From assembly GCA_029931535.1 (NCBI GenBank), contig JAQPZY010000780.1:62001-126000 (forward strand): 64,000 nucleotides of DNA, written 5' to 3'. Every line of letters begins with the position of its first letter. Within the stretch, counting starts at the first letter, position 1. The translations under genes and the position numbers were made by a program. Of the stretch, positions 12,254 through 47,407 are shown one piece after another. The notes beneath the pieces are model-generated. The model saw only the letters and a list, made by a program, of their open reading frames with translations, did not search any database and had not been told where the DNA came from. The DNA comes from Margaritifera margaritifera (lineage: Eukaryota > Mollusca > Bivalvia > Unionida > Margaritiferidae).

Positions 12254-15200
12254 AGGATGAATAGATCTTAAAATGTGTCAAGTCTGTAGACCCTCTAGTA
12301 TAAATTTATTTAATCAATAAGGAGGCGCCATAAAAAAATGCTTAAAAACAAACTCCAAACAACAAAAGTAGGCTTCAAGTACTAACTTGTTTAAATTAGT
12401 TTTTCAACATCAATCCTGCAAATTATTAGTGACTGAACTTACACGATCTGTTGCTATTCGATATTCTGTCACCCATACAGTATTGTATGCCTTTTGCACT
12501 CTACGACAAACGGACACATTTTTAGGAAAAATGCTTGGGCAATTATAGTAATAAAATTGTTAAGTAGCGATTCAAACTCTCAACATAATCATAATCGTGT
12601 CTGAAATCGATTGATAAATTGGGTATTGATGAGTGTTGATTGCAAACCGAAATTAACTGACAATCGAAATTTGAGTGTAACGTCTTTTACCGAACTATAC
12701 TGAAAGCTTGCCAAGACCAAAAATTCACGTTTTAATGCAGAAATTAACAAAAGAACCAAAATCCATATAAATAAACTCACAATCATTAAAATCTTTTGTT
12801 TAAAGATGTTACGCTCTGAAATCTGTAGGTTGTGACCGCTCTGCGATGTTTCTCCAGCATCCCCACCCCAACAATGTTCACTATATCAATCCGTGCAAGA
12901 AATGTATTAACGAATATAAAAATCTCTTCATTTTCGTTTGAAAACAGTCATTAATTTAACAAAATACACAATCTGAAACATTATTTGTACAAGCTAAATT
13001 TGTAAAAGGTCGCTGTCCTAAAATTATTGTAAATTTCGGAACTTCTTTTTATCAGTGTAATCGCTAATCCCATTGGTACAGAATGGATAGAAATCCATGC
13101 AAATCTATGGTTTTTACCTTTAAAAATATATAATTAAAAGAAAATCTACGATATTTATGTATAGATAAGAAACTATTTCCCTCGTAAAGTGGAAACATTT
13201 TGTATTGTGACGAGTGGCTTTGCCACTCATGACAATACAATGTTGCCCACTTCATTCTTGAAATATTTCCTTATGTAGATATCCTCTATGTATTTAGCTA
13301 TATTGCCTAATTTTACTTGGTTGGGTGCACAATAGATACTCCATATAGGTAAGTCTGTTGTCAAAGCCATGGTGGTCTACCTATTACAGGTGCCGGCCTG
13401 GTTGGCTTGGTGACTTGTGTAACTTTCCCTGTCGCCAAGGTACGTTCGGCACAAACTGTGGAACTATATGTAACTGTAACCATGGCTCATGCTCTCCAGA
13501 AGATGGCATGTGTTCTTGCGAAGATGGATACAAATTGCGTAAGTTTTATCTAAGATTGCTCACGATGTCTTATATGCACTCTCTCTCTCTCTCAGTGAGT
13601 CAAATGAAATTATACAGCAAATATTCTCATACATTTATTTTCTATATAACGGGGTACAGAGGATATGACGAGTGATTGGTATTGCTCCATTCAACTTTGT
13701 GGGACAAAATAGGTTTTTCAGTCCTTTAGGAGAGAAATCTTAAAATAGTAATTTTGGTGCATTTTCGTTTTAAGTGTCAAGGACTGAGACTTCTCAGTTA
13801 ACCTGAATGCTATACACTATATTTTCCGAAATGATTTTTATAAGGCTTTCTTTGATCGTTTTGAATAAACTCAAGAAAATGTTTACAAACATAGTTGGCT
13901 GATGGAAGGGTAAGTGGATACAACCAGCGCACCATAAATGCAAAGTAAAGCCAACTCCCACCACCTCTCCCACCCACCCGGAATAAAAGAGCGATTACAA
14001 GAAAAATAAAAATAAAAAGGAAGAAAAGGATCACTAACAAGTATAGCATACAGTCCCATCTCCTATAACGGTCACCTCTCTTCAACAACTTTCTCATATA
14101 AGCTATTGTTTTGTGTTTCCCAACTACCCCCGTGTGAGACCGATGTTTTTGATGTGAATTCAATTAAGAAAACATATAATAGTGTACCACAGAAGAAAAT
14201 CTTGGACTTTGTGAACGAATGAGGTTTATATGACACGTTTTGACCCTTTATTGTAAGGATTTTATACCTTTTACTGTTATATTGTAACTACCTTTCACTG
14301 TTGTATTTTAACTACCTTTTACCATTATATTTTAACCACCTTTTACCGTTGTTTTTAACTCCATTTAGCTGTTATATTTTAGCTACCTTTGACTATTATA
14401 TTTTAACTACCTTTGACTGTTATATTTTAACTACCTTTGACTGTTATATTTTAACTACCTTTTTCTGTTATATTTTAACTACCTTTGACTGTTATATTTT
14501 AACTACCTTTGACTGTTATATTTTAACTACCTTTTGCCATTATATTTTAACTACCTTTTTCTGTTATATTTTAACTACCTTTTACTGTTATATTTTAACT
14601 ACCTTTTGCTGTTATATTTTAACTACCTTTGACTGTTATATTTTAACTACCTTTGACTGTTATATTTTAACTACCTTTTGCCATTATATTTTAACTACCT
14701 TTTTCTGTTATATTTTAACTACCTTTTACTGTTATATTATATTTTAACTACCTTTGACTGTTATATTTGAACTATCTTTTGCCATTATATTTTAACTACC
14801 TTTGACTGTTATATTTGAACTATCTTTTGCCATTATATTTTAACTACCTTTTACTGTTATATTTTAACTACCTTTTACTGTTATATTTTTACTACCTTTT
14901 ACTGTTATATTTTTACTACCTTTTACTGTTATATTTGAACTACCTTTTACTGTTATATTTAAACTATCTTTTGCCATTATATTTTAACTACCTTTGACTG
15001 TTATATTTGAACTATCTTTTGCCATTATATTTTAACTACCTTTGACTGTTATATTTGAACTATCTTTTGCCATTATATTTTAACTACCTTTTACTGTTAT
15101 ATTTTAACTACCTTTTACTGTTATATTTGAACTACCTTTTACTGTTATATTATATTTTAACTACCTTTTACTGTTATATTTTAACTACCTTTTACTGTTA

Positions 15201-18200
15201 TATTTTAACTACCTTTTACTGTTATATTTTAACTACCTTTTGCCATTATATTTAAACTACCTTTTACTGTTATATTTGAACTACCTTTTACTGTTATATT
15301 TGAACTACCTTTTACTGTTATATTTGAACTACCTTTTACTGTTATATTTAAACTACCTTTTACTGTTATATTTTAACTACCTTTGACTGTTATATTTTAA
15401 CTACCTTTTGCCATTATATTTTAACTACCTTTTTCTGTTATATTTTAACTACCTTTTACTGTTATATTTTAACTACCTTTTACTGTTATATTATATTTTA
15501 ACTACCTTTGACTGTTATATTTGAACTATCTTTTGCCATTATATTTTAACTACCTTTTTCTGTTATATTTTAACTACCTTTTTCTGTTATATTTTAACTA
15601 CCTTTTACTGTTATATTATATTTTAACTACCTTTGACTGTTATATTTGAACTATCTTTTGCCATTATATTTTAACTACCTTTTGCCATTATATTTTAACT
15701 ACCTTTTTCTGTTATATTTTAACTACCTTTTACTGTTATATTTTAACTACCTTTTACTGTTATATTATATTTTAACTACCTTTGACTGTTATATTTGAAC
15801 TATCTTTTGCCATTATATTTTAACTACCTTTTTCTGTTATATTTTAACTACCTTTTTCTGTTATATTTTAACTACCTTTTACTGTTATATTATATTTTAA
15901 CTACCTTTGACTGTTATATTTGAACTATCTTTTGCCATTATATTTTAACTACCTTTGACTGTTATATTTGAACTATCTTTTGCCATTATATTTTAACTAC
16001 CTTTTACTGTTATATTTTAACTACCTTTTACTGTTATATTTTTACTACCTTTTACTGTTATATTTTTACTACCTTTTACTGTTATATTTAAACTACCTTT
16101 TACTGTTATATTTAAACTATCTTTTGCCATTATATTTTAACTACCTTTGACTGTTATATTTGAACTATCTTTTGCCATTATATTTTAACTACCTTTGACT
16201 GTTATATTTGAACTATCTTTTGCTGTTATATTTTAACTACCTTTTACTGTTATATTTTAACTACCTTTTACTGTTATATTTTAACTACCTTTTACTGTTA
16301 TATTTTAACTACCTTTTGCCATTATATTTTAACTACCTTTTACTGTTATATTTGAACTACCTTTTACTGTTATATTTGAACTACCTTTTACTGTTATATT
16401 TTAACTACCTTTTACTGTTATATTTAAACTACCTTTTACTGTTATATTTTAACTACCTTTTACTGCCATATTTAACTACCTTTTGCCATTATATTTAAAC
16501 TACCTTTTACTGTTATATTTGAACTACCTTTTACTGTTATATTTTAACTACCTTTTACTGTTATATTTTAACTACCTTTTACTGTTATATTATATTTTTA
16601 CTACCTTTTACTGTTATATTTTAACTACCTTTTACTGCCATATTTAACTACCTTTTGCCATTATATTTAAACTACCTTTTACTGTTATATTTGAACTACC
16701 TTTTACTGTTATATTTTAACTACCTTTTACTGTTATATTTTAACTACCTTTTACTGTTATATTATAATTTTACTACCTTTTACTGTTATATTTAAACTAC
16801 CTTTTACTGTTATATTTTAACTACCTTTTACTGTTATATTTAAACTACCTTTTACTGTTATATTTTAACTACCTTTTACTGTTATATTTAAACTACCTTT
16901 TACTGTTATATTTTAACTACCTTTTACTGTTATATTTTAACTACCTTTTACTGTTATATTATATTTTTACTACCTTTTACTGTTATATTTAAACTACCTT
17001 TTACTGTTATATTTTAACTACCTTTTACTGTTATATTTAAACTACCTTTTACTGTTATATTTGAACTACCTTTTACTGTTATATTTTAACTACCTTTTAC
17101 TGTTATATTTAAACTACCTTTTACTGTTATATTTGAACTACCTTTTACTGTTATATTTAAACTACCTTTTACTGTTATATTTTAACTACCTTTTACTGTT
17201 ATATTTGAACTACCTTTTACTGTTATATTATATTTTTACTACCTTTTACTGTTATATTTAAACTACCTTTTACTGTTATATTTTAACTACCTTTTACTGT
17301 TATATTTTAACTACCTTTTGCATAATTTTAGCATCTTTACCTTTTATCTTTCATTTTCTAGTAGTTCATATTTACGTTTATTTCGAAGGTTTTATCTTCC
17401 AAGACATTTGTGTGTGTATGTGAGGGGGAGGGGGATTTTGAATATATGTTAATTTTTAGAACTTAAATTTTGATCTCACCATATAGCCAGTATTGTGCTG
17501 ACGTACCGTTAAACCCTGAAACATAAAATATTTTCAAAACTGCCATTTTTGGTGTAAGTAGCCATCTCCCTTACATAGACAAAATTTGTATATCCTATAG
17601 GTTCATTGTAAATATGAGTTTTCTTGTGTTAATCTTTCAAAAAATGTATATATTTCTTTACCTTTTGCTCTGTCTTGTTTTGGCATATAGAAGACATTTA
17701 CAATGTAATTGTTTTTTTTTCAGCGGACTGCTATGAACGGTGTGACCCTTTAAACTGGGGAGGAAGTTGTCTGAAATTTTGTGACTGTAACAGCCAGCCC
17801 TGTGACCCTGTGACTGGTCTATGTCAATGTGGGCCTGGGTACACAGGACATAAGTGTGAACTTGTGAGTGTCATTATGTCGGTCAGGCTGGTATATGTCA
17901 GTGTGTGCCTGAGTACACGAACATAAGTGTGAACTTGTGAGTGTCATTCAATTTGTCAGACTGGTCTATTTCAGTGTGGGCCTGGTCAAACATATTTAAA
18001 TGGAACTTTTTAGTATCAGTATGTATGTCAGGCTGGTATATGTCAATGTGGAACTGGATACACAGGACATAAGTGGAACCTGTGAGTATCATTATATCTG
18101 TCAGATTGGTCTATGCCATTATGGGCCTGGATACACAGGACATAAGTGGAACCTGTGAGTATCATTATATCTGTCAGATTGGTCTATGCCATTATGGGCC

Positions 18201-20662
18201 TGGATACACAGGACATAAGTGGAACCTGTGAGTATCATTATATCTGTCAGACTGGTCTATGCCATTATGGGCCTGGGTAGTCATGATAAAGTGGAACCTG
18301 TGAGTATCATTATATCTGTCAGACTGGTCTATGTCATTATCGGCCTGGATACACAGGACATAAGTGTAAACTTGTGAATATAATTGTATATATTAGACTA
18401 ATATTTCTTTTTGCATTTTATTTACCAAAGATACAATTGGCTTCATGTCTTTTTGTTAGAAGGCAAGGCGCTGGATATATTTGTGTTTTTGTTAGGAGGC
18501 AAGGTGCTGGATTTATTTTCCATCCCTAAAATTGTCAGCACTGAAAAGATTTAAAAAACACGTCATATTTTGAACATATATACTAAAGAGTTAAACACTA
18601 TCATGTGTAATGAAAAGCTATTTTGAAATGACATTTCCTTTCAAAAATATTGATTTCAATACTAAGATTCATCCTTATATAATACTGACTATGATATGAT
18701 GTATATAATACTGATTATGAAATGTAGTATATAATATTATGACATGATGTATATAATACTGATTATGACATGTAGTATATAATACTATGACATGATTTAT
18801 ATAATACTGATTATGACATGTAGTATATAATACTATGACATGATTTATATAATACTGATTATGACATGTAGTATATAATACTATGACATGATGTATATGA
18901 TACTGATTATGACATGTATATAATATTGACAATGATATGTTGTATATAACACTGACTATGACATGTAGTATACCATACTATGACATATAGTATACCATAC
19001 TATGACATATGGTATACCATAATATGACATGTAGTATACCATACTATGACATGTAGTATACCATACTATGACATATAGTATACCATACTATGACATTTTG
19101 TATGTCAAAGAACTGTCCATGCAGCTTAATCAAAACTAGTATTCAATTAAATATAGATCAATTTTCATTAAACACCATTCATGTTGATATGATCTACTTA
19201 TGATCTTGGTGAAAAGTATGGGAAAAACTAGCTTAAAATGTTGACGCTATTTTTAAAGGAATATCCTTGAAAACAGCTACATTGAAGATTTTATGTTTCT
19301 AACAAACGTTTAGACAGCATTTTAAATGAATTTCAATACAATTTAGATGTATTTGCTAACCTTTATCTTGTTTTGAAGAAATAAAATAGGGACTGAATAA
19401 AAGTACATACATTTGCTTTCTTAATGGTGGCTGACTACATATATATATCTATTGATTAAAACATATATATTGTCTCTTAACTGATCGAAATTGTGCTAGC
19501 AATACTTCTTTTCGATTAATGTGATAGCTTAATTTTTATCCAACAAAAATTCAAACCAGAACTGTTTTTATACAGCAATGTTATCATGGCACTTGGGGTC
19601 AAGGATGCAGCCAAATCTGTACATGTTTGCATGGCTTTGGTTGTGACCACATCACCGGGCAATGTAATTGTGCGTATGGATACATAGGAGCCGCCTGTGA
19701 GGTACCCTGCCCAAAATGGACGTAAGCAAATTTAGTATTAGAACTATATTTTTATGTAGAGTGTGTATCACACTATGAAAACCTAATATAATTACTCTCA
19801 GCAGTCCAGGTAGTCCCTTGAATTGGTATTATACATGAAGAAAATCGCGATATGTGAAGAAAACAAGCAAACATGGATCAAGCGGGCGTAATAAAATATT
19901 CAGATTAAGACCTCAAGGGTTTTATATTTTAAACATACATGCGTTAGTATCTATTATATTTTCACTTAGTATCTTCTACCGTCAGATTTGGTATGATGTT
20001 TACTCACTCTTCTATGCCCATTTTAATTCGAACGTGAAAATACCAGGGACTGCCTATATTTTTTTCTCGTCAGAAAACGCATATTCGAGCAGGTTAAAAA
20101 ATGTTCCCATGCTTATTGTACCTCTGATATTATTAAATGATAAAAGACGACAAACTGAATCAAATGTAAGTAAATCAATATCGTGTATATTCGCGTACAA
20201 GTCAGATGCAGCTGAAAACAAAGAAGAGCCTATCTGCCGTTGCATGATTGGACGGAATATATGGATATATGTTGTCTGCAGTTGAATCAGACACATATGA
20301 GTGTCTATACGGTATTAATATCTGAAAGGAGAGAGATATTCCACAGATGGCTTGACAATAAGAGTAATGAGGAATATGATGTTGCGATGATCTTAAATTC
20401 GTTTATGGTGCAGCCATTCTAGACGAGTTTTCATTGCCGGCAAATAATGCAGCACCCGAGATACTCAGATAACTGGACATATCGATTGATTGGAATTACT
20501 TGTCAAAAGACTCATAAAAATGAGACCTAAATGAACGTGTAACTAACCATGCTTGAGAAAGCTTTATGTTGAGACTGTGCGAGACTTTCTAGTTACGTGG
20601 TGTTTTCGATTGATCGACTGATGTATGTTTTTACACACACACACACACACATATATAGATAT

Positions 20663-23357: not shown

Positions 23358-26300
23358 TGTGTGTGTGTGTCTGTGTTTGTGTGCATGGTGTGTGCATGTA
23401 TGTCTATGTGCATGCATACGTGTGTGTGTGTGTGTGAAAAATGCCCCAACATTGATGATTTTATTATTTTCCTAAATTAAAACAGGAGGTTGAAAAAAAT
23501 CATAATATTGTTGTAAACAGACGAAAAAGTATTTTTTACAGAACAGTAGATTTTTTAATGATCCATATAATTCTTAATCCTTAATGATCCATATAATTCT
23601 TAATCCTAATGATCCATATAATTCTTAATCCTTAATGATCCATATAATTCTTAATCCTTAATGATCCATATAATTCTTAATCCTTTCGCGAACTTTGTAT
23701 TCACACACAATTTATGCAAACGTTTTATTCATACACAATTTAGATGAAACTGTTACTTTGCTTTTTTTGTGATATGCTTCATTTGTGATCAAAATTCTGA
23801 ATTTATTTCCTCAGCTAAGGACAGATATTTTCTTTATTCTTCATTCTATCATTTTCTACTTTCTGCCTCTTTTTTTAAAATATCGCAGGTTACTAGTTTG
23901 CATTGTCACTTGCAATATTCATTGTCATATTCTTAAATTTTTATTAATTGTGAAACAAAAATTGGAACTTTGTAAAGATAGGGAGTCTAAGGTTCCGCAT
24001 GCACAGTACTGTCGTTGTGTTGGTCAGGTGCAATACAGAAGTAAGAATAAAAAATAAAATCTTAATTCAATAATCTACTAATATTTAAATATTTTTCACA
24101 CGGCAGTATTAAAAATGCATGAATTGTACTTAATATAGTTTCGGGTTTTGTTACGGTTTATCATTACTTCTCTTGAGGTCATGCATCGTCTCCAGTATTG
24201 TATTCAGTATTATTGTTTGTTTTTGTTTATTTTTATCATCAGTGAGACTGTTATTTTAAATCATATACGCATATCTCTACATCACTGGATGATTACTGGT
24301 GTTATAAGTAAACTGTGGAGATTTTTTCTTTCAGCTTTGGAAACTCGTGCTCTCAGAATTGCACGTGCCTTCAGAATCAGACTAGTAACTGCGATACATT
24401 CAGCGGTCAATGTGTATGCATGCCTGGGTATAAAGGAGGCAACTGCGAAAATAAATGTGACCCCGGGTACTATGGACAAAACTGCACATCCCTTTGTAAC
24501 TGTCTGCATGGAGCCACGTGTAACCCTGTAAGTACTGTCAACTCAGTAACAACTGTTGTACCTACTGACTACAATAAGCCCCATAAGTGTTTCAGTCATT
24601 TCAGGTGACTTTATCTCTACTATGTTAATCGTATCTTCTTTACCCCGCTTTGATTGGCACGCTCCCATGTTCCTTGTGCGTCTACCTCGATGTTCTAATG
24701 CAGGTAAAAATTTCAGCTGTTGTGCTTTATTTCGATTTCTCATTATTCTGTATAGGATGCTATGCCTTAAATCCTCTCAAATGGTCTACTGGTTTAGGTC
24801 TCCTTAAATCCTCCTAGTTGGTCAACTGGTTTAGGTCACTTTAAATCCTTCGAGTTGGTCCACTGGTCCTGATCTCCTTTAATCCTCTGAGTTGGTCCAC
24901 TGGTTTCGATCTTCTTAAATCCTCTGATTTGGTCTGATGGTTTAGGTCTCCTAAAATCCTCCGAGTTGGTCTGCTTGTTTCTATCTCCTTATATCCTCTG
25001 AACTGGTTTACTGGTTTTGATCTCCTTCAATCCTCTGGGTTGATCTACTGGTTTCATTCTCCTTAAATCCTTCGAGTTGGTCTACTGGCTTCTACTGGCT
25101 TAGGTCTTCTTAAATCCTCCGAGTTGGTCTACTGGTTTCGATCCCCTTTCTGATATTTTTTTCTGATATATTTGTGGGTTTTTAAATCCAGCGCCTGGAG
25201 ATGAAGCCCACAATTTATCTTGTAGAAGGTAGCTAAAGTTATATATACTCTTTTAAGTCCATTGATATTTTTTTATAGTAGGGACTAAATTTCCCACTAT
25301 CAGTAAAATATATTCAGAACTAAGGTAACCTCAGTTTGTAATATATCATAATACTACCGTATATTAATGCTGACACTAAGCACTACAGACAAGTTTCCAA
25401 TTCTTTTCTTGATATTGCTATGAATCGTTCAAAATAGCAATAATTTGCATGATAATTCTAAAACATTCGTCTGGCATTTTTTTAAAATGCATCGTTTTGT
25501 ATACTGTAGGTAAATTTGTTGCTGGAATTAAGTACTAAAAGTACTAAAAGTAAGAAATTAGCTGTATTATTCACCTATAGCATGTGTCCCTTTCTACCAC
25601 AGATTGATGGATCTTGTCAATGTCCCCCAGGTTTCTCTGGAAACCAGTGTGAAACTCCTTGTCAGGACGGTTTCTATGGCAACAATTGTACTCAAAGATG
25701 CAGTACGTGCAATGGTGGTATATGCAGTAAAGTGGATGGTACATGCATTTGTCAGGCAAGCAACGATGTTCTTTAAGTCGATGCAACTTTGTTTGTAAAG
25801 GTTTAATTCCTGTCTGAAATAATAATTTCAATTGTGAACATGTTTCAGATGCCCATCGTTTACTTTGAAATATTTACCTATGTAATCATATATGAATTCG
25901 TATTTAGCTCCAAATGGTAGTTGCGATAATTGCCATTTTTCTGCATTGGTTTGGTTTTTTACGACACAGCAACATAAATAAGTTATTTAGTACCGAGGCA
26001 ATTGGAGTAAAATGTATTTCCCAAGGACACACTACTTTAGCTGACCAGGGCTGATCCAATAGTTGGATTCTAACCCTTGTCCACTTGGCTGCAAGTCAGA
26101 CACATTACCACCGAGCCATTGCGAGTCCTCCGTTATTCTGCTTAATTGGATCGTGTACTTTTTAAAACATTTTTGGGTATTTCACAAATTATTTGCATAA
26201 CTTAGAGGAAAAGCGGTGGCTCAGGGATTAGCATGCCGGACTCGCGACCAAAAAGGTGCGGGCTCGAATCCTAGCATTGATGCAGCCCGGGTCAGCTACC

Positions 26301-41858: not shown

Positions 41859-44800
41859 CAGATCATAGAGTATAATATATATTCAACATATTTTTTAAAA
41901 CTTTTGTATCAAAACATGTATAAAATCGTCTTTGTGTCTGCAATGATGAAAGTTGTGCAGAGCTGTCAGGTAATACAGGTGAGTCAATTTACGGACTAGA
42001 TTTTAGATTTCTTCTTCAAGTCTGTTTACGCTGAGTAAAGTGCCAATATTGCCTCACAGTTGAGAAACCATAGTCGTTTTCTTTCGGTTTGTGGGGAGGG
42101 GGAGGGGAGATTCTGGATGAGGGCGAAGGTTAATGACATTCTACTTGTTATCTTCCGGAGGTTACCTGTACAGATAATTACAAGTTTGTTTATTTATTTA
42201 TTTTATTTATTTATTTTTCCAGGTTGTGATTCCAATCACTTTGGTTTCCAGTGTGCCCAGGTTTGTGGGTGTCAGAATGGTGCGGTGTGCGACCCTATTA
42301 CCGGAAACTGCCGATGTCAACCTGGTTGGTCTGGTTACTTCTGCGATCAGAGTAAGGGCATACTTACATGCACAGTTTATTTTTGTTTTTATTGATTGAT
42401 AGGGAACCTGTAAATACATTGGACAAGGTCAGAGGTTCGGTGCTGTAAAATATTCAAACAAGAAAAATTAATGACATTGTTTACATAAAATGATTAAAAC
42501 ATGGACTACGTATTCAGCTATACAATTTTTATGTTGAAAAATGTTTGACTAGAAGGTAATTATTATGTTAATAAAGTGAATAAACTAATATTAGTGAATA
42601 AGAACAAATTTACTATACAAATGTGGTGAAAATGAAAGATGAAAAATTTAGAAAACATGCGAAATGAAAATGTGAGCATTATTTTGGGATAAAATATGGA
42701 TAAAATTTCTCTTATTAAATATGTTATATAAAAAAGCAACACATAATCTTACTGAAACATACAAAATATATTATAGTTATGGATCTAATTTATTTCAGAC
42801 AGTATTTAGTTTTAAATTTAAGATGAAAATTTTAGTGACATTACTTCATTTACAGTTTTACACTAAGAAGTTTAAAGTTACCGATATTCACAGGTTGCCC
42901 TGATGGTTACTATGGAGATGGGTGTTCGCAGGTGTGCCCTGACTGTCAGAATGGGGGATCATGTGACTCCTTATCAGGGACCTGCGCATGCTCCACTGGA
43001 TTCACGGGACCCCTGTGCAATACTTCTTTAACTACACTCGCTTTACAGCAACCTTCGCAACAAGTCATAAGTAAGTGAAAGACTCAGTTTATATCCTTTA
43101 TTCTAAAACCTTTTGTACCTGGTTTGGTTTCCATGCGACGTTTCTCCCAACAAAAGATATGTGACTATTTTAAAAATAAATACATGTTGAAATAATTTCA
43201 AAACACTTTTTTATGTGAAATAAGCAAAAATGTAGTATTCTTTTGATAACAAACTTTCCACTGTGTTTGATGACCACCTAACTAGCGTGTGCTTTGAATA
43301 AACGCTCATTTAAGCCTGATTAAAAATTAATGTGTTTTATAAAATACATTTTTTAGGTTTGGCCAGTGGAATGTTGCAGCTAAGTGCTGGGCAACTTGCT
43401 GGTTTGATTATTGGGTTCCTAATTGCCACCATAATAGCTGTTGTCATTGCAACGCTGCTATCAAGGAAACGGTACACAGGACAATTTTTTAGAGATGGAA
43501 TATTTGGCGCAAGGAAACTGAATGACAAAGAGGTAAACTATCATAGATGTCTGCATTTATATTGTACAACCTTGTAATCTTGTTTCCATTTATATTGTAC
43601 AACCTTGTAACCATGTTTTCATTTATATTGTGCAACCTTGTAATCTAGTTTCCATTTATATTGTACAACCTTGTAATCTTGTTTTCATTTATATTGTGCA
43701 ACCTTGTAATCTTGTTTTCAGTTAGAGTGTGCAACCTTGTAGTCTTGTTTCCATTTATATTGTACAACCTTGTAATCTTGTTTCCATTTATATTGTGCAA
43801 CCTTGTAATCTTGTTTCCAATTATATTGTGCAACCTTGTAATCTTGTTTCCATTTATATTGTACAACCTTGTAACCATGTTTTCATTTATATTGTGCAAC
43901 CGTGTAATCTTGTTTCCATTTATATTGTACAACCTTGTAATCTTGTTTCCATTTATATTGTGCAACCTTGTAATCTTGTTTTCAGTTAGAGTGTGCAACC
44001 TTGTAGTCTTGTTTCCATTTATATTGTACAACCTTGTAGTCTTGTTTCCATTTATATTGTGCAACCTTGTAATCTTGTTTCCAAAGAAGAAAAAAACAAA
44101 TGAGATAAGTGCAGCACTTCTCTAATTTAATTACCTCTGCCATTAAATGTTTTGCTCGCACCCTGAAGCATAACTTTATAGTCATGCAGCTTGTTTATGT
44201 GCACTAAGGATAAGTATAATATCCTGTGTATGATGTAATAAAATGAGTCTATACTTTTTGAGTATAATAAAATGAATTGACGATTTTTTGAATATAATAA
44301 AATGAGTCTATGCTTTTTTTAGTATAATAAAATGAGTCAATGCAATTTTTTCAGTATAATAAAATTAGTCAATGCTTTTTTGAGTATAATACAACGAGTC
44401 AATGCTTTTTCAGTATAATAAAATGAGTCGATGCTTTTTGAGTATAATAAAATGAGACAATGCTTTTTTGAATATAATAAAAATGAGTCAATGCTTGTTT
44501 GAATATAATAAAATGAGCTGATGCTTTTTCGAATATAATAAAATGAGTCGATGATTTTGTTAGTACCGTATATACTCGATTATAAGTCGTCTCGACTATA
44601 AGTCGACCCCCCGCCTTTTTAGGGCTGCAAAAAGTGAATTTCTCTTTGACCCTCCTATAAGTCTGGGTGTATTTTGCAAGTCAGATCCGTCTGAAGGGGG
44701 GACTTCTTAGTGAGTCAGATCCGTCTGAAGGGGGGACTTCTTAGTGAGTCAGATCCGTCTGAAGGGGTGACTTCTTAGTGAGTCAGATCCGTCTGAAGGG

Positions 44801-47407
44801 GGTGACTTCTTAGTGAGTCAGATCCGTCTGAAGGGGTGACTTCTTAGTGAGTCAGATCCGTCTGAAGGGGTGACTTCTTAGTGAGTCAGATCCGTCTGAA
44901 GGGGTGACTTCTTGGTGAGTCAGATCCGTCTGAAGGGGTGACTTCTTGGTGAGTCAGATCCGTTTGAAGGGGTGACTTCTTAGTGAGTCAGATCCGTCCG
45001 AAGGGGTGACTTCTTAGTGAGTCAGATCCGTCTAAAGGGGTGACTTCTTAGTGAGTCAGATCCGTCTGAAGGGGTGACTTCTTAGTGAGTCGGATCCGTC
45101 CGAAGGGGTGACTTCTTAGTGAGTCAGAAATGCACTTTGGAAATATAAACAAGCCAAACTGGATAGATAGATAAGAAAAATAAACACAAAACCAGTGTAA
45201 AATACAATTATATTATTTAGTGAAATATGACACAAATAAATTGACAACTTACAATTTGTCCATCTTTGTGTAATAAAATCCGTTGAAATACATAATGCTG
45301 GACATTTTAAATCCATTTATATGATAAATCCAGGAATTCAATTATAGGTCACATACCGGTATAAAAATGGAAGTACAGAATGATCCGATTCACAATATCC
45401 CCCGTAATATGTTAATTCCACACGTCGTACAAATAAACAATGAAAGTTAAGTCCATTTTTTTGTGATTCACGGTATCCTATAAATGTCACTATCTAATGT
45501 CATCTGGTACAAAGTCCACGAATTAATCCTCATTGTCTGATAAAGTTCTGAAATCCTACATCGTCGTCTAGTCATCGTAAATCTCGTCCGACTCCGATTC
45601 TCGGCTTTACTGTCATATGCGGGTGCTTATGCAGAGACTGAGCTTGGGCTCTGTGAGAAACACTTTGATCATAAAGTCAGAAATCTATTAAAGACTGCAA
45701 CTGAACACATGTCAATTGTGCGGCAAGATCACAGGGAGTTCAAATAGCCACCCTCTGTTACTTGGCACTGAACAAGTATCAAACTAGTGGCATGATCAAA
45801 GGGTTGTCACGTGGGAAAACAAAGAGTGTGGTGCCTTTACAAGCTAAGGGATTAAGGTCAAAGTATATGCACAGGAAGTTGTAGAACTCTACTTGGCACT
45901 GAATAAGTATAGATTGGCGGCTCGATCAAAAGGATTGTCAACTTGAAAACAAAGTGAGTCCCTTTAAAAGCCAAAGGCTTATCAGACCACGTGCACTGGC
46001 AGATAACTTGGGAAATATCACTTGGGAATTAAATCTGACTTGTGGAAAAGGAAAAGACAAATTAAATCAAAACTTTTATTGCATCAAGCACAGTTTTTAT
46101 ACAGCAAAACACAAATATTAATACAAATACAGGTTGTTCGGACTTGCACGAAAATGAGGCAATATACTTAAAAGTAAAGACCCACGGTAAATATTGACGG
46201 ACACTTCATGTTGCGGTAGGTAGTATTTAATTTACCTGTAATATTTTCAAATTAATAAAATCCAAATAACTGTAGATACATGTATTGTGTAATGAATACC
46301 GTCATAAAACGGATAAACACAGTGCATACCATATATGCATTACTGCATAGGAATAGTGGCATGAAAACGTAAAAATATATGAATTGATAGTATTTGTATG
46401 TACTGCAAACATCTAGAGTTTCCAACAATACCCCAAGATTTTTTTTTTAATGTCGCGCTTATAAGACGACCACAACTCTGCATGAATCGAATTCTAAGTA
46501 AAAAACGTCGACTTATAAGCGAGTATATACGGTATAACAAAATGAATCTATGGTTTTGAGAGTCCCACTGGAAAAATGTAGTTGCATAACATTTTTATTT
46601 TACAATAAATTGAAATATTTGCAAATTGTACAAGCAATTCTCAGCCAAAAAGATTCACTAAACGTTTACTATATCCATCAGTTTCATACACAGTTTTAAA
46701 AAAAGAAACTATTTTTGGGACATGGATGCACCCGCAAAAATGGTCTGATTGGATAGAACAAGATTCTTTCACATTAGCTATATCTTCTTAATTTTAAGTC
46801 TTTTTCAGTCTTCCACCACGAAGTCCTTCAAAAGTGTTTGAGTGGAATACAACGTTCTAAACCAAGAAGAGCACCATAAATCATTCCAAACTTAATGGGA
46901 AAAAGTGTGAATAGAACTTGAGTTAGGTCTTCCCAATATTAATCCTTATAAAATATTTTATTACATATAAGGAAGTCCATCAATAGTTACAGATCAGAAA
47001 CAAAATTGAGTCCAACAGGGGCCATAACTCGTTCACAATCTGAATCAAAGAGGTGTACCTCGAACTTGATGTGTCTCTATTAATCCTCATAAAAATGATT
47101 TCAATGCAAGAAGTTCTTCAGGAGTTATTTAAGCAATGCTCATAGTACATGCAAACTTATAAATCAAATGATTAATAATGATTTTTGTGTCTCAATTCAG
47201 GTCACTCTTGAAACTAAAGAAATTTATCACCATGGGAACAGCGAGATGGCATTCTCCAATCCATGTCATGAAGCGGATTATGAGACCAGTTTCGAAACCA
47301 AGAGCATCAGCGAGGTGTCTGATGCTCCAACCACTACTAGTGGTGTGGCATCATTAATAATGGATTCTGATGATGACGGTCAATTCGTTAAGGATAGTGC
47401 TGCGTGA
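1870..47407 (+). CDS. WSC-domain multi-EGF single-pass receptor (23 exons joined, 5' end missing)
   Basis: Joining 23 exons at consensus splice sites gives an uninterrupted frame of 1094 codons plus TGA; every exon phase agrees. Residues are numbered from the first visible exon. WSC domain at about 22-113 with the canonical eight cysteines; about 19 laminin-type/MEGF-like EGF modules at about 144-955, each with a CxCxxGxxGxxC-type end; transmembrane helix about 981-1002 followed by SRKR as stop-transfer; cytoplasmic tail about 1003-1094 ending in an acidic DSDDD stretch. From family knowledge, long EGF arrays of this kind occur in engulfment and scavenger receptors (MEGF10/PEAR1/Draper/CED-1/SCARF), which usually begin with an EMI domain; WSC domains are putative carbohydrate binders. 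A cell-surface recognition role is inferred. No initiator methionine or signal peptide is visible, so the N-terminus is incomplete. An orthologue cannot be named from sequence alone. Confidence 0.88.
2708..2797 (+). CDS. Exon 2: middle of WSC domain
   Basis: Acceptor gtttcag, donor gtatat. Encodes [20 protein letters not shown], the GF/Y..G....ECFC signature of WSC, with the fourth and fifth cysteines. Length 90 nt keeps phase 2 on both sides. Confidence 0.87.
3425..3584 (+). CDS. Exon 3: end of WSC domain and linker
   Basis: Acceptor tttccag, donor gtaaga. Encodes [20 protein letters not shown], the last three WSC cysteines and the CGG.YR.. ending. A proline-rich linker ([12 protein letters not shown]) and a CDEWC segment follow. 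Ends on a codon boundary. Confidence 0.88.
3612..3885 (+). repeat. 44-46-bp minisatellite beside exon 3
   Basis: About six copies of a unit containing ccagtgcctctttgacaa and agcaacattgtgtt, starting 28 nt after the exon 3 donor. Each copy contains an acceptor-like ttccag. Confidence 0.85.
3886..4740. other. Intron 3 sequence, nothing recognised
   Basis: Unique-looking AT-rich intronic sequence between two tandem arrays; no domain or element recognised on either strand. Confidence 0.5.
4741..5940. repeat. 30-bp minisatellite, 40 units in perfect register
   Basis: Forty units of agaagtctgtcctctctgaa plus a variable last third (atattccaat, atatagatat or atattgatat). There is not one insertion or deletion across 1200 bp. 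Because 30 is a multiple of three, several frames stay open on both strands (up to 397 codons on minus); these are not genes. Confidence 0.97.
5945..8497. other. Intron 3 sequence, no gene seen
   Basis: AT-rich intron. TGACGTCA palindromes at 8012-8019 and 8228-8235. A small hairpin-like gcattgctatgcaatg occurs near 7303. No coding homology recognised. Confidence 0.45.
8506..8742. mobile_element. Non-autonomous TIR element (hAT-like MITE)
   Basis: GC-rich 237-bp island. Ends are cagtggcggtgc and, inverted, cagtggcggcgc: 12-bp terminal inverted repeats with one mismatch. Flanks catcaacg (8498-8505) and catctatg (8743-8750) match at 6 of 8 positions, as expected of an aged 8-bp target duplication of hAT type. 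No transposase. Composition differs sharply from its surroundings. Confidence 0.7.
9154..9252 (+). CDS. Exon 4: first EGF-like module
   Basis: Acceptor catcag, donor gtgagt; 33 whole codons. Encodes [10 protein letters not shown]...[14 protein letters not shown], with the CxCxxGFxGxxC end of an EGF-like module. A 5.6-kb intron full of repeats separates it from the WSC exons. Confidence 0.84.
9277..9405. repeat. AAC/AAT microsatellite filling intron 4
   Basis: Runs of AAC then AAT make up more than half of the 229-bp intron between exons 4 and 5. Confidence 0.9.
9482..9653 (+). CDS. Exon 5: EGF-like module 2 and start of module 3
   Basis: Acceptor ccacag, donor gtaggt; starts in phase 0 and ends one base into a codon. 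Contains [24 protein letters not shown] and [10 protein letters not shown], the laminin-type/MEGF spacing. Confidence 0.88.
9820..9998 (-). mobile_element. SINE-B copy (tRNA-derived), minus strand
   Basis: Read on minus: an A-box-like cgactcagtggttagc, a B-box-like ggtttgaattc, a middle with cttggcaaggtgctttattcc, and a tail ggccgtaaaaacacacc. Same family as copies at 25946, 26213 and 34972. Confidence 0.7.
10327..10357. repeat. (CA)n microsatellite
   Basis: Uninterrupted CA run in intron 5. Confidence 0.9.
10472..10826. repeat. 41-42-bp minisatellite before exon 6
   Basis: Eight copies of a unit with aaaatgagaaagttcatttt and ctatttgcattaggca. Two alternating junction forms (agtatc and agatttc) give a higher-order order. 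Ends about 90 bp before exon 6. Confidence 0.92.
10918..10972 (+). CDS. Exon 6: short EGF exon
   Basis: Only 55 nt. Acceptor is a weak-looking ccaaaaaag after a pyrimidine-rich stretch; donor gtaagt. Encodes [18 protein letters not shown], which completes the module begun in exon 5. Both phases fit, which supports this otherwise weak acceptor. Confidence 0.82.
11450..11600. repeat. Two-copy ~62-bp direct repeat
   Basis: Two near-identical copies of a unit with tattgagatcgtacctcgta and a trailing partial copy. Confidence 0.85.
11601..13389. other. Intron 6 sequence, no gene seen
   Basis: AT-rich intron with a (CT)n run at 12175-12249. No exon-like cysteine pattern found before exon 7. Confidence 0.45.
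12175..12249. repeat. (CT)n microsatellite
   Basis: About 75 bp of nearly pure CT. Confidence 0.95.
13390..13538 (+). CDS. Exon 7: EGF-like modules 3-4
   Basis: Acceptor attacag, donor gtaagt. Encodes [32 protein letters not shown] and CSCEDGYKL. The last module runs into exon 8 as [12 protein letters not shown] and lacks the usual GxxG before its final cysteine. Confidence 0.88.
14285..17325. repeat. 24-bp satellite, about 3 kb
   Basis: Roughly 125 copies of taactaccttttactgttat plus attt. Variants (ttgact, ttgccat, tttctg in the middle) recur in blocks; the segments near 14740-15060 and 15890-16210 look like long copies of each other. Fills most of intron 7. Open frames reading NYLLLLYF repeats are artefacts. 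Confidence 0.97.
17724..17863 (+). CDS. Exon 8: EGF-like module 5
   Basis: Acceptor ttttttcag, donor gtgagt; ends on a codon boundary. Encodes [14 protein letters not shown] and [15 protein letters not shown]. The last ~50 nt and the donor are tandemly copied downstream in the intron (see repeat at 17864-18400). Confidence 0.9.
17864..18400 (+). repeat. ~73-bp minisatellite copied from the end of exon 8 and its donor
   Basis: Seven decaying intronic copies follow the true exon end. Each repeats the coding stretch from tggtctatgtcaatgtgggc through cataagtgtgaactt, the donor gtgagt and some 20 nt of intron. Most copies are preceded by ctgtcag, acceptor-like, so a copy resembles a mini-exon. 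Confidence 0.93.
18680..18945. repeat. 48-bp minisatellite
   Basis: About five copies of a unit with tgatttatataatactgatt and atgacatgtagtatataata. Confidence 0.92.
18950..19102. repeat. 22-bp hairpin-forming minisatellite
   Basis: Seven or so units of tatgacatatagtataccatac. Most contain the inverted repeat atagtat-acc-atactat. Confidence 0.9.
19576..19721 (+). CDS. Exon 9: EGF-like module 6
   Basis: Acceptor atacag, donor gtaagc. Encodes [30 protein letters not shown] and CPKWT. Ends two bases into a codon, matched by exon 10. Confidence 0.9.
19722..20632. other. Intron 9 start, no gene seen
   Basis: A 143-codon plus-strand frame (19854-20285) shows no recognisable domain, signal or homology and overlaps an 80-codon antisense frame. 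Treated as non-coding. Confidence 0.5.
20633..20730. repeat. (CA)n-(TA)n microsatellite
   Basis: CA run passing into a long TA run. Confidence 0.95.
21337..21364. repeat. (GA)n microsatellite
   Basis: Short pure GA run in intron 9. Confidence 0.9.
21941..22036. repeat. (CA)n-(TA)n microsatellite
   Basis: CA then about 80 bp of TA. Confidence 0.95.
22331..22450. repeat. (TA)n-(GT)n-(TA)n compound microsatellite
   Basis: A central GT block flanked on both sides by long TA runs; able to fold as a cruciform. Confidence 0.95.
22830..22882. repeat. Short catcat(a/c)aaataca repeat
   Basis: Four or five copies of a ~14-bp unit, catcataaatacatcatcac. Confidence 0.8.
23267..23435. repeat. (TA)n-(GT)n microsatellite
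   Basis: About 86 bp of TA followed by imperfect GT/GC-interrupted sequence. Confidence 0.95.
23552..23686. repeat. 26-bp minisatellite
   Basis: Five copies of ttaatgatccatataattct-taatcc. Confidence 0.92.
24335..24527 (+). CDS. Exon 10: EGF-like module 7 and half of module 8
   Basis: Acceptor ctttcag, donor gtaagt; the longest EGF exon at 193 nt. Encodes [34 protein letters not shown] and [10 protein letters not shown]. Confidence 0.9.
24745..25150. repeat. ~37-bp minisatellite in intron 10
   Basis: Ten or so diverged copies of ttaaatcctccgagttggtc-tactggtttaggtctcc. Confidence 0.88.
25603..25755 (+). CDS. Exon 11: EGF-like modules 8-9, GC splice donor
   Basis: Acceptor ccacag. Encodes [23 protein letters not shown] and GTCICQ. 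Reading on reaches an in-frame TAA 21 nt past the exon end, and no GT donor of quality lies nearby. The best donor is CAG|GCAAGC, a textbook GC-AG intron site that keeps the frame into exon 12. Confidence 0.8.
25946..26130 (-). mobile_element. SINE-B copy (tRNA-derived), minus strand
   Basis: Left end ggtttggttttttacgacac is the complement of the family tail (gtgctgtg..aaaccaaacc). The middle ccaaggacacac and the right end with accaccgagcca correspond to the core and A-box region. Lies about 80 bp from an opposite-strand copy. Confidence 0.75.
26213..26390 (+). mobile_element. SINE-B copy (tRNA-derived), plus strand
   Basis: A box gtggctcagggattagc (about 26218-26234) and B box gggctcgaatcc (about 26262-26273) at tRNA spacing. 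Then the core with gggcaaggtactttaccaca and the tail gttgctgtgccataaacacc-aaacc. The best-preserved member of this family in the window. No clear target duplication. Confidence 0.82.
26872..27022 (+). CDS. Exon 12: EGF-like modules 9-10
   Basis: Acceptor ctgtcag, donor gtaata. Encodes [38 protein letters not shown]. Joined to exon 11 the module reads GTCICQ then NVQNCTC, an atypical spacing. A small exon may have been lost or missed between them. Confidence 0.83.
27470..27655. repeat. 62-bp minisatellite
   Basis: Three copies of a unit with atttatgtagtgttgtaaag and tgttatatatagcactttta. Confidence 0.9.
27795..28490 (-). mobile_element. Possible LINE 3' end, minus strand
   Basis: Read on minus, the sequence ends in aataaagttgttattattat, a run typical of non-LTR retrotransposon 3' tails. 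Upstream frames have no clear reverse transcriptase motif. Family unassigned. Immediately upstream of exon 13. Confidence 0.4.
28509..28630 (+). CDS. Exon 13: EGF-like module 11
   Basis: Acceptor ccccag, donor gtaagt. Encodes [30 protein letters not shown] and ADMCD. Ends on a codon boundary before a 7-kb intron of satellites. Confidence 0.89.
28897..28970. repeat. (TA)n microsatellite
   Basis: Long TA run; smaller TA/GT runs lie at 28830-28880. Confidence 0.95.
29262..29385 (-). mobile_element. SINE-B fragment, minus strand
   Basis: Diverged tail (tttggtattttacgaca) and core (ccttggccaaggacacgcc) of the SINE-B family; the tRNA-like head is degraded. Confidence 0.5.
29676..29996. repeat. 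45-bp minisatellite
   Basis: Seven copies of cagtcatgcaagactggaca-aggtgtaatacttatcctct-ataac, nearly identical, suggesting recent expansion. Confidence 0.95.
30130..30312. repeat. 39-bp satellite, left block
   Basis: Four to five copies of ttatgtatttaaaactatat-gggtgtattaacaatatag. Interrupted at 30313 by a probable solo LTR and resumed at 31180. Confidence 0.95.
30313..31179 (+). mobile_element. Probable solo LTR, 867 bp
   Basis: Begins TGTTAC and ends GTCATAACA (TG...CA with TGTTA/TAACA inverted ends). It is flanked by the direct repeat CAAT at 30309-30312 and 31180-31183. Removing the element and one CAAT restores the 39-bp unit exactly in register. Contains a TATA-like actataaataag at about 30660-30672. 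No coding region or second LTR, hence a solo LTR. Superfamily unassigned. Confidence 0.72.
31180..32940. repeat. 39-bp satellite, right block
   Basis: About 45 copies. Copies before ~31910 are mostly gggtgtattaa(t/c)aatatag. Copies from ~32110 to 32720 are a gggtatattagcaatatagt-catgtctataaa subfamily alternating with the first. Outer copies are most diverged. The 573-codon plus frame and the two minus frames (290 and 234 codons) result from 39 being a multiple of three. Confidence 0.97.
33120..34162. repeat. 63-bp minisatellite
   Basis: About 16 copies of aatgaagagatgcacaccca-tgtcattcaggccttgaatt-gataaggaagaatgtaccat-cat. The central copies are nearly identical and the first few lack the ggaa insertion. 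A 304-codon minus frame is an artefact. Confidence 0.96.
34376..34429. repeat. (TA)n microsatellite
   Basis: Pure TA run. Confidence 0.95.
34972..35115 (-). mobile_element. SINE-B fragment, minus strand
   Basis: Core ccttgcccaaggacacc and, on minus, a B box gggttcgaatcc (complement near 35049-35060) with an A-box region near 35090. The 3' tail is missing. Confidence 0.68.
35526..35595. repeat. (GTAT)n microsatellite before exon 14
   Basis: Seventeen tetranucleotides, ending 29 nt before exon 14, within the usual branch-point zone. Confidence 0.95.
35625..35806 (+). CDS. Exon 14: EGF-like module 12
   Basis: Acceptor atacag lies about 30 nt after a (GTAT)n run; donor gtaaga. Encodes [26 protein letters not shown] and [14 protein letters not shown]. 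Confidence 0.89.
36204..36288 (+). CDS. Exon 15: EGF-like module 13
   Basis: Acceptor atttcag, donor gtaagc; 85 nt. Encodes [15 protein letters not shown] and [14 protein letters not shown]. Phase matches exons 14 and 16. Confidence 0.88.
36601..36715 (+). CDS. Exon 16: EGF-like module 14
   Basis: Acceptor atgcag, donor gtaata. Encodes [16 protein letters not shown] and [11 protein letters not shown]. Ends in phase 1; from here every boundary up to exon 22 is phase 1. Confidence 0.88.
37397..37655 (+). mobile_element. SINE-A copy 1 (tRNA-Leu-like head)
   Basis: A box ggatggccgagtggtcta near 37407-37424, B box ggttcgagtct near 37469-37479, then a non-tRNA body with gagaaagcttgccagtagct and a tail with gcattaaacccacaaaacca. 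Flanked by a perfect 10-bp duplication ctaaaggaca (37387-37396 and 37656-37665). Confidence 0.88.
38010..38145. repeat. Imperfect (TAC)n microsatellite before exon 17
   Basis: TAC/TGC triplets, about 135 bp, ending near 60 bp upstream of exon 17. Confidence 0.9.
38202..38348 (+). CDS. Exon 17: EGF-like module 15
   Basis: Acceptor gttacag, donor gtaatt; 147 nt, phase 1-1. Encodes [15 protein letters not shown] and [13 protein letters not shown], a single complete module. Confidence 0.9.
38778..38906 (+). CDS. Exon 18: EGF-like module 16 (129-nt cassette)
   Basis: Acceptor attttag, donor gtaagt. Exactly 129 nt, phase 1-1, one 43-residue module ([16 protein letters not shown] to [10 protein letters not shown]). 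Confidence 0.92.
38935..39480. other. Intron 18 sequence, nothing recognised
   Basis: Short local duplication of gtgtactttattgc(a/g)gtaaatt near 39008-39055; otherwise unremarkable. Confidence 0.5.
39629..39757 (+). CDS. Exon 19: EGF-like module 17 (129-nt cassette)
   Basis: Acceptor gtttcag, donor gtcaga. Exactly 129 nt, phase 1-1. Encodes [17 protein letters not shown] and [13 protein letters not shown] 90-bp TA run begins 45 bp past its donor. Confidence 0.91.
39803..39894. repeat. (TA)n microsatellite after exon 19
   Basis: Pure TA run starting 45 bp downstream of the exon 19 donor. Confidence 0.95.
40093..40166. repeat. (GT)n-(TA)n microsatellite
   Basis: Short GT run followed by TA. 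Confidence 0.95.
40180..40600 (+). mobile_element. Possible diverged LTR relative
   Basis: Shares short motifs in the same order with the solo LTR at 30313-31179: ttcattcggaata, aggattatttggaattta, ttctgttacat and an end near acctagagtc. No boundaries or target duplication found; sits between two TA runs. Confidence 0.35.
40601..40641. repeat. (TA)n microsatellite
   Basis: Pure TA run. Confidence 0.95.
40642..41500. other. Intron 19 sequence, nothing recognised
   Basis: Less AT-rich than its neighbours, possibly an old repeat, but no ends, motifs or coding signal identified. Confidence 0.4.
41502..41585. repeat. (TA)n microsatellite
   Basis: Pure TA run. Confidence 0.95.
41821..41860. repeat. 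(CA)n-(TA)n microsatellite
   Basis: CA run passing into TA. Confidence 0.93.
42223..42351 (+). CDS. Exon 20: EGF-like module 18 (129-nt cassette)
   Basis: Acceptor tttccag, donor gtaagg. Exactly 129 nt, phase 1-1. Encodes [16 protein letters not shown] and [12 protein letters not shown]. Confidence 0.92.
42894..43070 (+). CDS. Exon 21: last EGF-like module and juxtamembrane stalk
   Basis: Acceptor ttcacag, donor gtaagt; 177 nt, phase 1-1. Encodes [17 protein letters not shown] and [12 protein letters not shown], then a cysteine-free Thr/Leu/Gln-rich stalk ([16 protein letters not shown]). Confidence 0.91.
43357..43532 (+). CDS. Exon 22: transmembrane helix
   Basis: Acceptor ttttag, donor gtaaac. 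Encodes a ~22-residue hydrophobic helix with small-residue spacing ([16 protein letters not shown]...), then [10 protein letters not shown] as cytoplasmic anchor. Ends in phase 0. Confidence 0.92.
43560..44085. repeat. 33-bp minisatellite after exon 22
   Basis: About 16 copies of catttatattgtacaacctt-gtaatcttgtttc beginning some 30 bp past the exon 22 donor. A variant with cagttagagtgtgc occurs twice, marking a longer duplicated block. Open frames on both strands are artefacts. Confidence 0.96.
44205..44565. repeat. ~29-bp minisatellite, left part
   Basis: Eleven or so copies of gagtataataaaatgagtca-atgcttttt. Broken by the element at 44566; the next unit continues at 46533. Confidence 0.93.
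44566..46532. mobile_element. TIR element of ~1.97 kb with TA target duplication
   Basis: Ends ccgtatatactcgattataa(gtcg) and its inverted counterpart with gctt in place of gatt: 24-bp inverted repeats with one mismatch, flanked by TA on each side. Removing it and one TA rejoins the ~29-bp array. Internally: a 34-bp minisatellite (44679-45125) and a direct duplication around acttggcactgaa(c/t)aagtat near 45759 and 45892. No transposase frame, so non-autonomous. The TA duplication suits Tc1/mariner-like or similar families; the exact family is unassigned. Confidence 0.75.
44679..45125. repeat. 34-bp minisatellite inside the TIR element
   Basis: Thirteen copies of gagtcagatccgtctgaagg-ggtgacttcttagt with few changes. 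Confidence 0.96.
46533..46562. repeat. ~29-bp minisatellite, right remnant
   Basis: One unit, tataacaaaatgaatctatg-gttttgag, in register with the left part once the TIR element is removed. Confidence 0.8.
47201..47407 (+). CDS. Exon 23: cytoplasmic tail and stop
   Basis: Acceptor attcag; 68 codons and TGA. The tail has tyrosines in EIYHHG and ADYETSF, an NP followed by CH (so no NPxY), Ser/Thr-rich DAPTTTSG, and an acidic MDSDDDGQF near the end. I see no classical ITAM or YxxL pair. Phospho-dependent signalling is possible but not demonstrated by motif. Confidence 0.9.
   Translation, partial: VTLETKEIYHHGNSEMAFSNPCHEADYETSFETKSISEVSDAPTTTSGVASLIMDSDDDGQFVKDSAA

Follow-up and report, generated by a model that had tools for sequence, protein, structure and literature searches.

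In this study, we found that a tandem array with a 73-bp period runs across the 5′ splice site of exon 8 in an EGF-rich receptor gene of Margaritifera margaritifera, so that the end of the exon, its donor and the first bases of the intron recur seven more times inside intron 8. We regard it as most likely a passenger minisatellite of a type already described for human IFI6; here, the first copy would still serve the gene and the later copies would be carried along by the intron. The sequence analysed (the window) is a stretch of 64,000 nucleotides, 62001-126000 of contig C475, with a GC content of 33.5%.

The array and its host gene

The host gene lies on the + strand and was represented by a hand-joined model of 911 amino acids, which is incomplete and in which the exons outside 7-10 have approximate ends. 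This model matched the Pfam family EGF_laminin (PF00053) with an E value of 5.9e-39, and arrays of laminin-type EGF modules are present in it. Its ten best protein matches have 32-40% identity, and those of the ten that carry a family name are MEGF10, MEGF11 or Draper; PEAR1 names appear from rank 14. The matches suggest that the gene is a MEGF/Draper-like scavenger-receptor gene. Among the 120 protein matches listed, which include Dreissena and oysters, none was recognised as a close orthologue from a unionid mussel. A hydrophobic stretch was noted, by eye only, in the exon at 43357-43532. The number of exon 8 was taken over from an earlier note on this DNA. As shown in Table 1, splice motifs and phases agree over four consecutive exons, and exons 7-10 give one open reading frame when they are joined via the first donor, which places the true donor at 17863|17864 and the final 52 nt of exon 8 inside the array. 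The introns flanking exon 8 are long, with 4,185 nt upstream and 1,712 nt downstream.

We cut the array into eight units of 72-74 bp, of which the first holds the exon end and the other seven lie in the intron. The exonic unit has 77-86% identity to units 2-8, while divergence between units ranges from none (unit 5 and unit 6) up to 32%. These results agree with the earlier note, which had described seven further copies of the exon end and donor at a spacing of about 73 bp, and whose span of 17815-18400 is close to that found by TRF. Named there as speaking against this description were copies unlike exon 8, or an absence of donor use combined with an identical source array elsewhere in the genome. 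The identities given above show that the copies do derive from exon 8, while the 73-bp unit was found at a single location in the assembly of 2,453,371,941 bases (1,696 contigs). A source array elsewhere was therefore rejected, which falls short of proof since the search skips very common words. The statement that the copies are preceded by ctgtcag is correct for units 5-8 (4/7) and incorrect for units 2-4; the shorter GTCAG is present at all seven junctions between units. By our cut, the AG ahead of each copy would be intron sequence that meets the G of the next exon-derived piece. The short motif GACT opens unit 1 (17812) and occurs again right after unit 8 (18396), which would be compatible with slippage between short matches. 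Unit 4 differs from unit 5 at eight of the first 28 alignment columns and at none from column 29 on, a pattern that may be read as a sign of exchange between units.

Table 1. Exons, array units and other sequence features of the window, followed by donor-crossing arrays at other exons of the genome
Feature	Position	Strand	Description
Exon 7 (EGF-type)	13390..13538	+	ends in phase 1; splice motifs; reads on in frame into exons 8, 9 and 10
Exon 8 (DCYERC...GYTGHKCEL)	17724..17863	+	enters in phase 1, ends in phase 0; donor at 17864
Exon 9	19576..19721	+	enters in phase 0
Exon 10	24335..24527	+	frame carried on
Minisatellite	17812..18389	+	73 bp x 7.9 copies (TRF: period 73, 83% matches, score 702); takes in the 52-nt end of exon 8 and 526 nt of intron 8
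Unit 1	17812..17885	+	last 52 nt of exon 8, donor, intron start
Authentic donor GTGAGT	17864..17869	+	
Unit 2	17886..17958	+	decoy GTGAGT donor at 17937
Unit 3	17959..18030	+	TTTAGT at 18009, donor lost
Unit 4, chimera	18031..18103	+	decoy donor at 18082
Unit 5	18104..18176	+	decoy donor at 18155
Unit 6	18177..18249	+	same sequence as unit 5; decoy donor at 18228
Unit 7	18250..18321	+	decoy donor at 18300
Unit 8	18322..18394	+	GTGAAT at 18374, donor weakened
Stop codon TAA	17924..17926	+	20 codons past exon 8, read through from every later donor
Only in-frame, stop-free mini-exon-like piece (unit 8)	18323..18373	+	51 nt, 17 amino acids, phase fits both ends
Comparison array, 34 bp x 13.2	44679..45128	+	later intron of the same gene; no exon content; 13 GTGAGT
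L034 donor-crossing array			53 bp, about 10 units
L035 donor-crossing array			144 bp x 2.6
L101 donor-crossing array (myosin exon)			85 bp x 3.7
L111 donor-crossing array			106 bp x 2.2
L021, L092			marginal donor-crossing arrays, only 4-5 exon nt

Splice signals and reading frames of the copies

The copies had been said to keep gtgagt, which holds for five of the seven intronic ones and fails for unit 3 (TTTAGT) and unit 8 (GTGAAT). GT itself stands at the donor position in 6/7 intronic copies, and CAG stands ahead of each. The true donor and the five decoys alike have a U1 pairing energy of −7.4 kcal/mol, whereas six other donors of the host gene pair more weakly than the decoys (−4.5 to −6.8 kcal/mol) and the GTGAAT of unit 8 pairs poorly (−1.7). 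The earlier description of a row of decoy donors is thus upheld, with five intronic GTGAGT sites equal to the true donor in U1 pairing. On the + strand of the window, 6 of the 30 GTGAGT (true donor included) lie within 17864-18400, and among the 106 GT sites of intron 8 only five reach −7.4 kcal/mol or better, all of them array copies, which excludes chance. The idea that decoy rows are peculiar to exon-derived arrays was rejected, since the 34-bp intronic array of the same gene also has such a row (Table 1).

Among the units, 26/52 exon-derived columns, 14/22 intron-derived columns and 3/6 donor columns are variable, and there is no clear extra conservation of the donor compared to the rest of the unit. 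Unit 8 differs from exon 8 at 5/52 exon-derived versus 10/22 intron-derived columns (p = 0.001, uncorrected, 28 pairs). Units 4-7 show the opposite pattern, in that they have an identical 22-nt stretch from donor to acceptor while their exon-derived parts differ; between unit 4 and unit 7, the differences are 13/51 in the exon-derived part versus 0/22 in the donor-to-acceptor stretch (p = 0.007, uncorrected, 28 pairs). Both patterns could reflect patchwork exchange between units, and constraint on splice signals is a possible cause of the invariant 22-nt stretch. Coding constraint on unit 8 was rejected: by our reading, four of its five exon-derived changes alter the amino acid, and there is therefore no sign of such constraint.

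When exon 8 is read on into the intron, all seven later donor positions run into the same stop codon (Table 1), so their use would truncate the receptor. One alternative reading is a working array of alternative donors, in which some later donors are used and the shared stop works as a poison switch, so that receptor output falls to a degree set by copy number. We consider it unlikely. Five decoys that equal the true donor, and surpass six other donors of the gene, speak for such a switch, as does the single stop to which they all lead; however, where introns are long, exon-centric proximity prefers the first donor in the available text of PMC9225289, and the lack of clear extra conservation of the donors does not suit a selected function. 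The precedent of IFI6, for which the accessible part of PMC4526556 gives downstream repeat units as donors, suggests by analogy that use of the copies here is possible, but an array at another exon, L034, persists although its donors are mostly lost (see below).

Inclusion of a copy as a separate exon leads to a similar result. Mini-exons running from CAG to donor (49-51 nt), when inserted before exon 9, bring in a stop in six of seven cases, and among the 28 contiguous stretches that begin at a CAG and end at the donor of that copy or a later one, only unit 8 alone is open. Between neighbouring mini-exons, about 23 nt separate the donor from the next CAG, which is too short for an intron. The earlier note had expected EGF module 5 to change if a later donor were used or a copy included; the frames predict truncation in nearly every case instead. 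That note had also seen exon duplication caught in progress, and the related possibility that one of the units, such as unit 8, is becoming an alternative mini-exon is very improbable. Unit 8 is 51 nt long, open and in phase at both ends, and all copies have a CAG ahead and most a GT at the donor position, yet an acceptor, a donor and an open, phase-matched frame come together in only 1/7 copies, unit 8 itself, and its donor is weak. The exon-derived changes of unit 8 without sign of coding constraint also argue against a new exon. Pyrimidine runs are no longer than 3 nt at the acceptor-like sites of the copies, compared to 2-10 nt at the eight real acceptors scored; two of these, at 9154 and 13390, are no better than the copies, and run length is not decisive. 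Taken together, the stops in six of seven units, the single open unit and the gaps of about 23 nt make exon duplication in the making unlikely, and we rejected it on reading frames.

Arrays at other exons of the genome

The survey comprised 133 exon matches from four families, which become 131 when two EGF rows that duplicate another exon are removed. The matches were drawn from lists of best candidates: 44 of 48 listed for EGF_laminin, 30 of 150 for SRCR, 39 of 73 for the myosin head (40 fetched, one dropped) and 20 of 150 for tyrosine phosphatase. The myosin and phosphatase rows were picked from the top, and most stop-containing rows and very long open frames were left out. An array was scored as crossing when a TRF array covered at least 4 nt of exon and at least 10 nt of intron. 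The junctions were mostly predicted by simple weights, with donors set by hand at eight loci and acceptors at none; without hand-setting, we judge, as an estimate that was not recomputed, that 4/6 TRF donor cases would stay.

The results show that TRF arrays cross the donors of 6/131 exons (two of them marginal) and the acceptors of 0/131 exons surveyed. Self-alignment adds two donor cases, the diverged L072 and a myosin paralogue family on contig C1442 (L102, L106, L107 and L112), which has one extra diverged copy and was counted once, with L102 and L112 checked by eye. There are six strict donor events versus no acceptor event (two-sided sign test 0.03 by our own arithmetic), or eight with the marginal ones. 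No crossing array was found at the donors or acceptors of the SRCR and phosphatase exons surveyed, and the cases are thus confined to two families. In the gene of this window, an array is present at the donor of 1/18 exons and at none of the acceptors; this is the starting exon and stands outside the survey count. Repeats cover 9.0% of positions at 60-450 nt from junctions, and within 10 nt they cover 4.6% after donors and 1.3% before acceptors. With 11.8 crossings expected, the probability of none at acceptors is 4e-6 and that of six or fewer at donors is 0.04, both on the assumption of independent exons, which fails since survey matches cluster in genes. The comparison of donors and acceptors is also small and post hoc.

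Several candidates were set aside. At six loci (L036, L088, L099, L100, L103 and L118) arrays come near an acceptor without crossing it, stopping about 5-36 nt before it (L118 by eye, the others as predicted). The array at L083 ends 14 or 84 nt before the acceptor, depending on which of two predictions holds, and an upstream pair at L034 ends at least 43 nt before the HMM match. The array at L086 begins 13 nt into the intron; at L050, L061 and L067 the repeat lies beyond the predicted donor; and at L030, L043, L107, L112 and L113 short arrays lie inside the stop-to-stop frame, off the predicted junctions. L068 is a case of two neighbouring EGF exons that are alike, not an array.

The donors of the crossing arrays have been kept to different degrees. 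L101 has five GTRAGT sites, its own donor included, at −10.7 to −10.8 kcal/mol, and GT is retained in every copy seen at L111 and L035, while the copies of L034 have ATGAGT in 6/9 and GTGAGT in 1/9, which shows that such an array can lose its donors yet persist. This mixed retention suits passengers better than a selected switch. An assembly artefact from collapsed or stuttered reads is the least credible explanation, since the units differ by up to 32% in a graded, chimeric series unlike a stutter product and similar arrays occur at unrelated exons, although the exact copy number may be off if the sequence is from the Margaritifera margaritifera V2 assembly, for which the text available under PMC10189783 gives PacBio CLR and short reads. 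Taken together, these results suggest that donor-spanning arrays are a recurrent class in this genome, one that is worth a genome-wide test.

Origin, polarity and known systems

To account for the array as a passenger minisatellite, we propose that a 73-bp block over the boundary of exon 8 and intron 8 was tandemly duplicated and that expansion and reshuffling by unequal exchange then produced the eight units; the order of these events is part of the proposal, and the pattern in units 4-6 is seen in the alignment. By its phase and frame, the first copy is still a working exon end with its donor, and it is presumably the copy used in RNA, while the seven further copies would be passengers of the intron. 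Under exon definition, which we assume for this animal, and with introns of 4.2 kb and 1.7 kb, the first donor, which is nearest to the upstream acceptor, should win, and rare use of a later donor would give a truncated and probably degraded mRNA. In the available text of PMC9225289, the upstream donor is likewise favoured when near-equal donors compete with long introns on both sides. The donors of the copies would owe their survival to homogenisation of the array and not to any use in splicing. Such tolerance may let donor-spanning arrays persist in a repeat-rich genome while acceptor-spanning ones are removed, as the survey suggests.

A more general polarity rule, by which tandem arrays may grow across 5′ but not 3′ splice sites, was framed after the data had been seen; it is a tentative idea, which we think somewhat more likely to fail than to hold. 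Its reasoning is that the first copy in a donor array is the authentic one and the nearest to the acceptor of the exon, whereas in an acceptor array the copy met first is a decoy. For alternative acceptors, the accessible part of PMC9225289 describes an upstream preference overall that is reduced under exon definition, which favours the sites closest across the exon, acceptors too. With the upstream preference, the decoy of an acceptor array would be at an advantage; since these findings are mixed, as far as that text goes, the tolerance of donor arrays is well explained and the absence of acceptor arrays only partly. If the rule is true, exon ends would be a recurrent seeding ground for minisatellites, many with silent full-strength donors, and the frequency of arrays in a genome would measure the preference of splicing for the exon-proximal donor. 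The asymmetry between donors and acceptors, if genome-wide, would point to selection on repeat expansion through splicing. The arrays are natural versions of the classic duplicated-donor test, with exon 8 having its own donor and five equal ones, and donor choice in existing RNA-seq at such arrays, which by the text available under PMC10189783 would include data from the assembled individual if the species is right, would probe the rules of exon proximity outside vertebrates. Gene predictors could misplace exon ends within donor arrays.

Among the matches listed in our literature search, which mostly excluded subscription papers, no survey of donor-spanning versus acceptor-spanning arrays was found. 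The 38-bp VNTR in intron 6 of human TERT is, like the array here, an intronic minisatellite in a gene body; it differs in that exon junctions are more than 1 kb away and in that its effect, as reported in the portion of PMC3948165 at hand, comes from RNA pairing and not from duplicated donors. The polyubiquitin gene UBC has an array of dual-specific splice sites, with splice sites in each tandem repeat as here, but its repeats are coding monomers according to the available part of PMC10809524, whereas only the first unit is coding here. In the duplications across exon-intron boundaries treated in the accessible text of the review PMC3443670, splice signals are doubled in the same manner; unlike in those cases, the array here requires no new intron or exon, and the copies lie in one intron with only one open frame among them. 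The closest system is the minisatellite of human IFI6, in which, according to the available text of PMC4526556 and PMC2915984, which cite the 1995 paper (NAR 23:1854; listed also among the references of PMC2572611), isoforms arise from the use of two downstream units. Both are tandem arrays at an exon end with units that serve as or carry donor sites, and here the array crosses the exon-intron junction with 52 nt of exon 8 and has 5/7 copies with a donor equal to the true one in U1 energy. The unit here measures 73 bp, 52 nt of which are exonic, while the citing text available does not give the length or exon content of the unit in IFI6. Unlike in IFI6, every later donor here would truncate the protein, as judged from the DNA.

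Tandem repeats and a long open frame in the window

Tandem repeats detected by TRF make up 25% of the window (1-64000). On the minus strand, the 30-bp array is open for 406 codons from stop to stop and reads as a repeated peptide; the length of this frame is probably no more than a consequence of a repeat unit that is a multiple of three nucleotides.

Coordinates of the arrays within the window and at two further exon loci of the same genome
Array	Location	Coordinates	Strand	Source
30 bp x 40	window	4724-5944	minus	TRF
24 bp x 125	window, just upstream of exon 8	14265-17319		TRF
39 bp x 45	window	31179-32935		TRF
34 bp x 13.2	window, later intron of the gene containing exon 8	44679-45128		TRF
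Laminin-EGF exon end + GTGAGT, ~10 units of 53 bp	L034	1618-2135		
Myosin-head exon end + GAG/GTAAGT, 85-bp spacing	L101	561-935	reverse	

Donor motifs elsewhere in the EGF-rich receptor gene

The 34-bp array contains 13 GTGAGT motifs and no exon content. Two of the 13 are preceded by G, and both have a U1 pairing energy of -9.2 kcal/mol. The donor of exon 11 seems to be of the GC type (CAG/GCAAGC, window 25753-25761).

Exon-end arrays at other loci

At the laminin-EGF exon (L034), GTGAGT is replaced by ATGAGT in six of nine copies. Numerous myosin-head-like matches, several with long open frames, were found on contig C1442 and may represent a gene family arranged in tandem. Among the loci examined there, four share one additional diverged copy of an exon end. 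The myosin-head array at L101 has five strong donors, including that of the exon itself, and is a cleaner case than the exon 8 array of the window.
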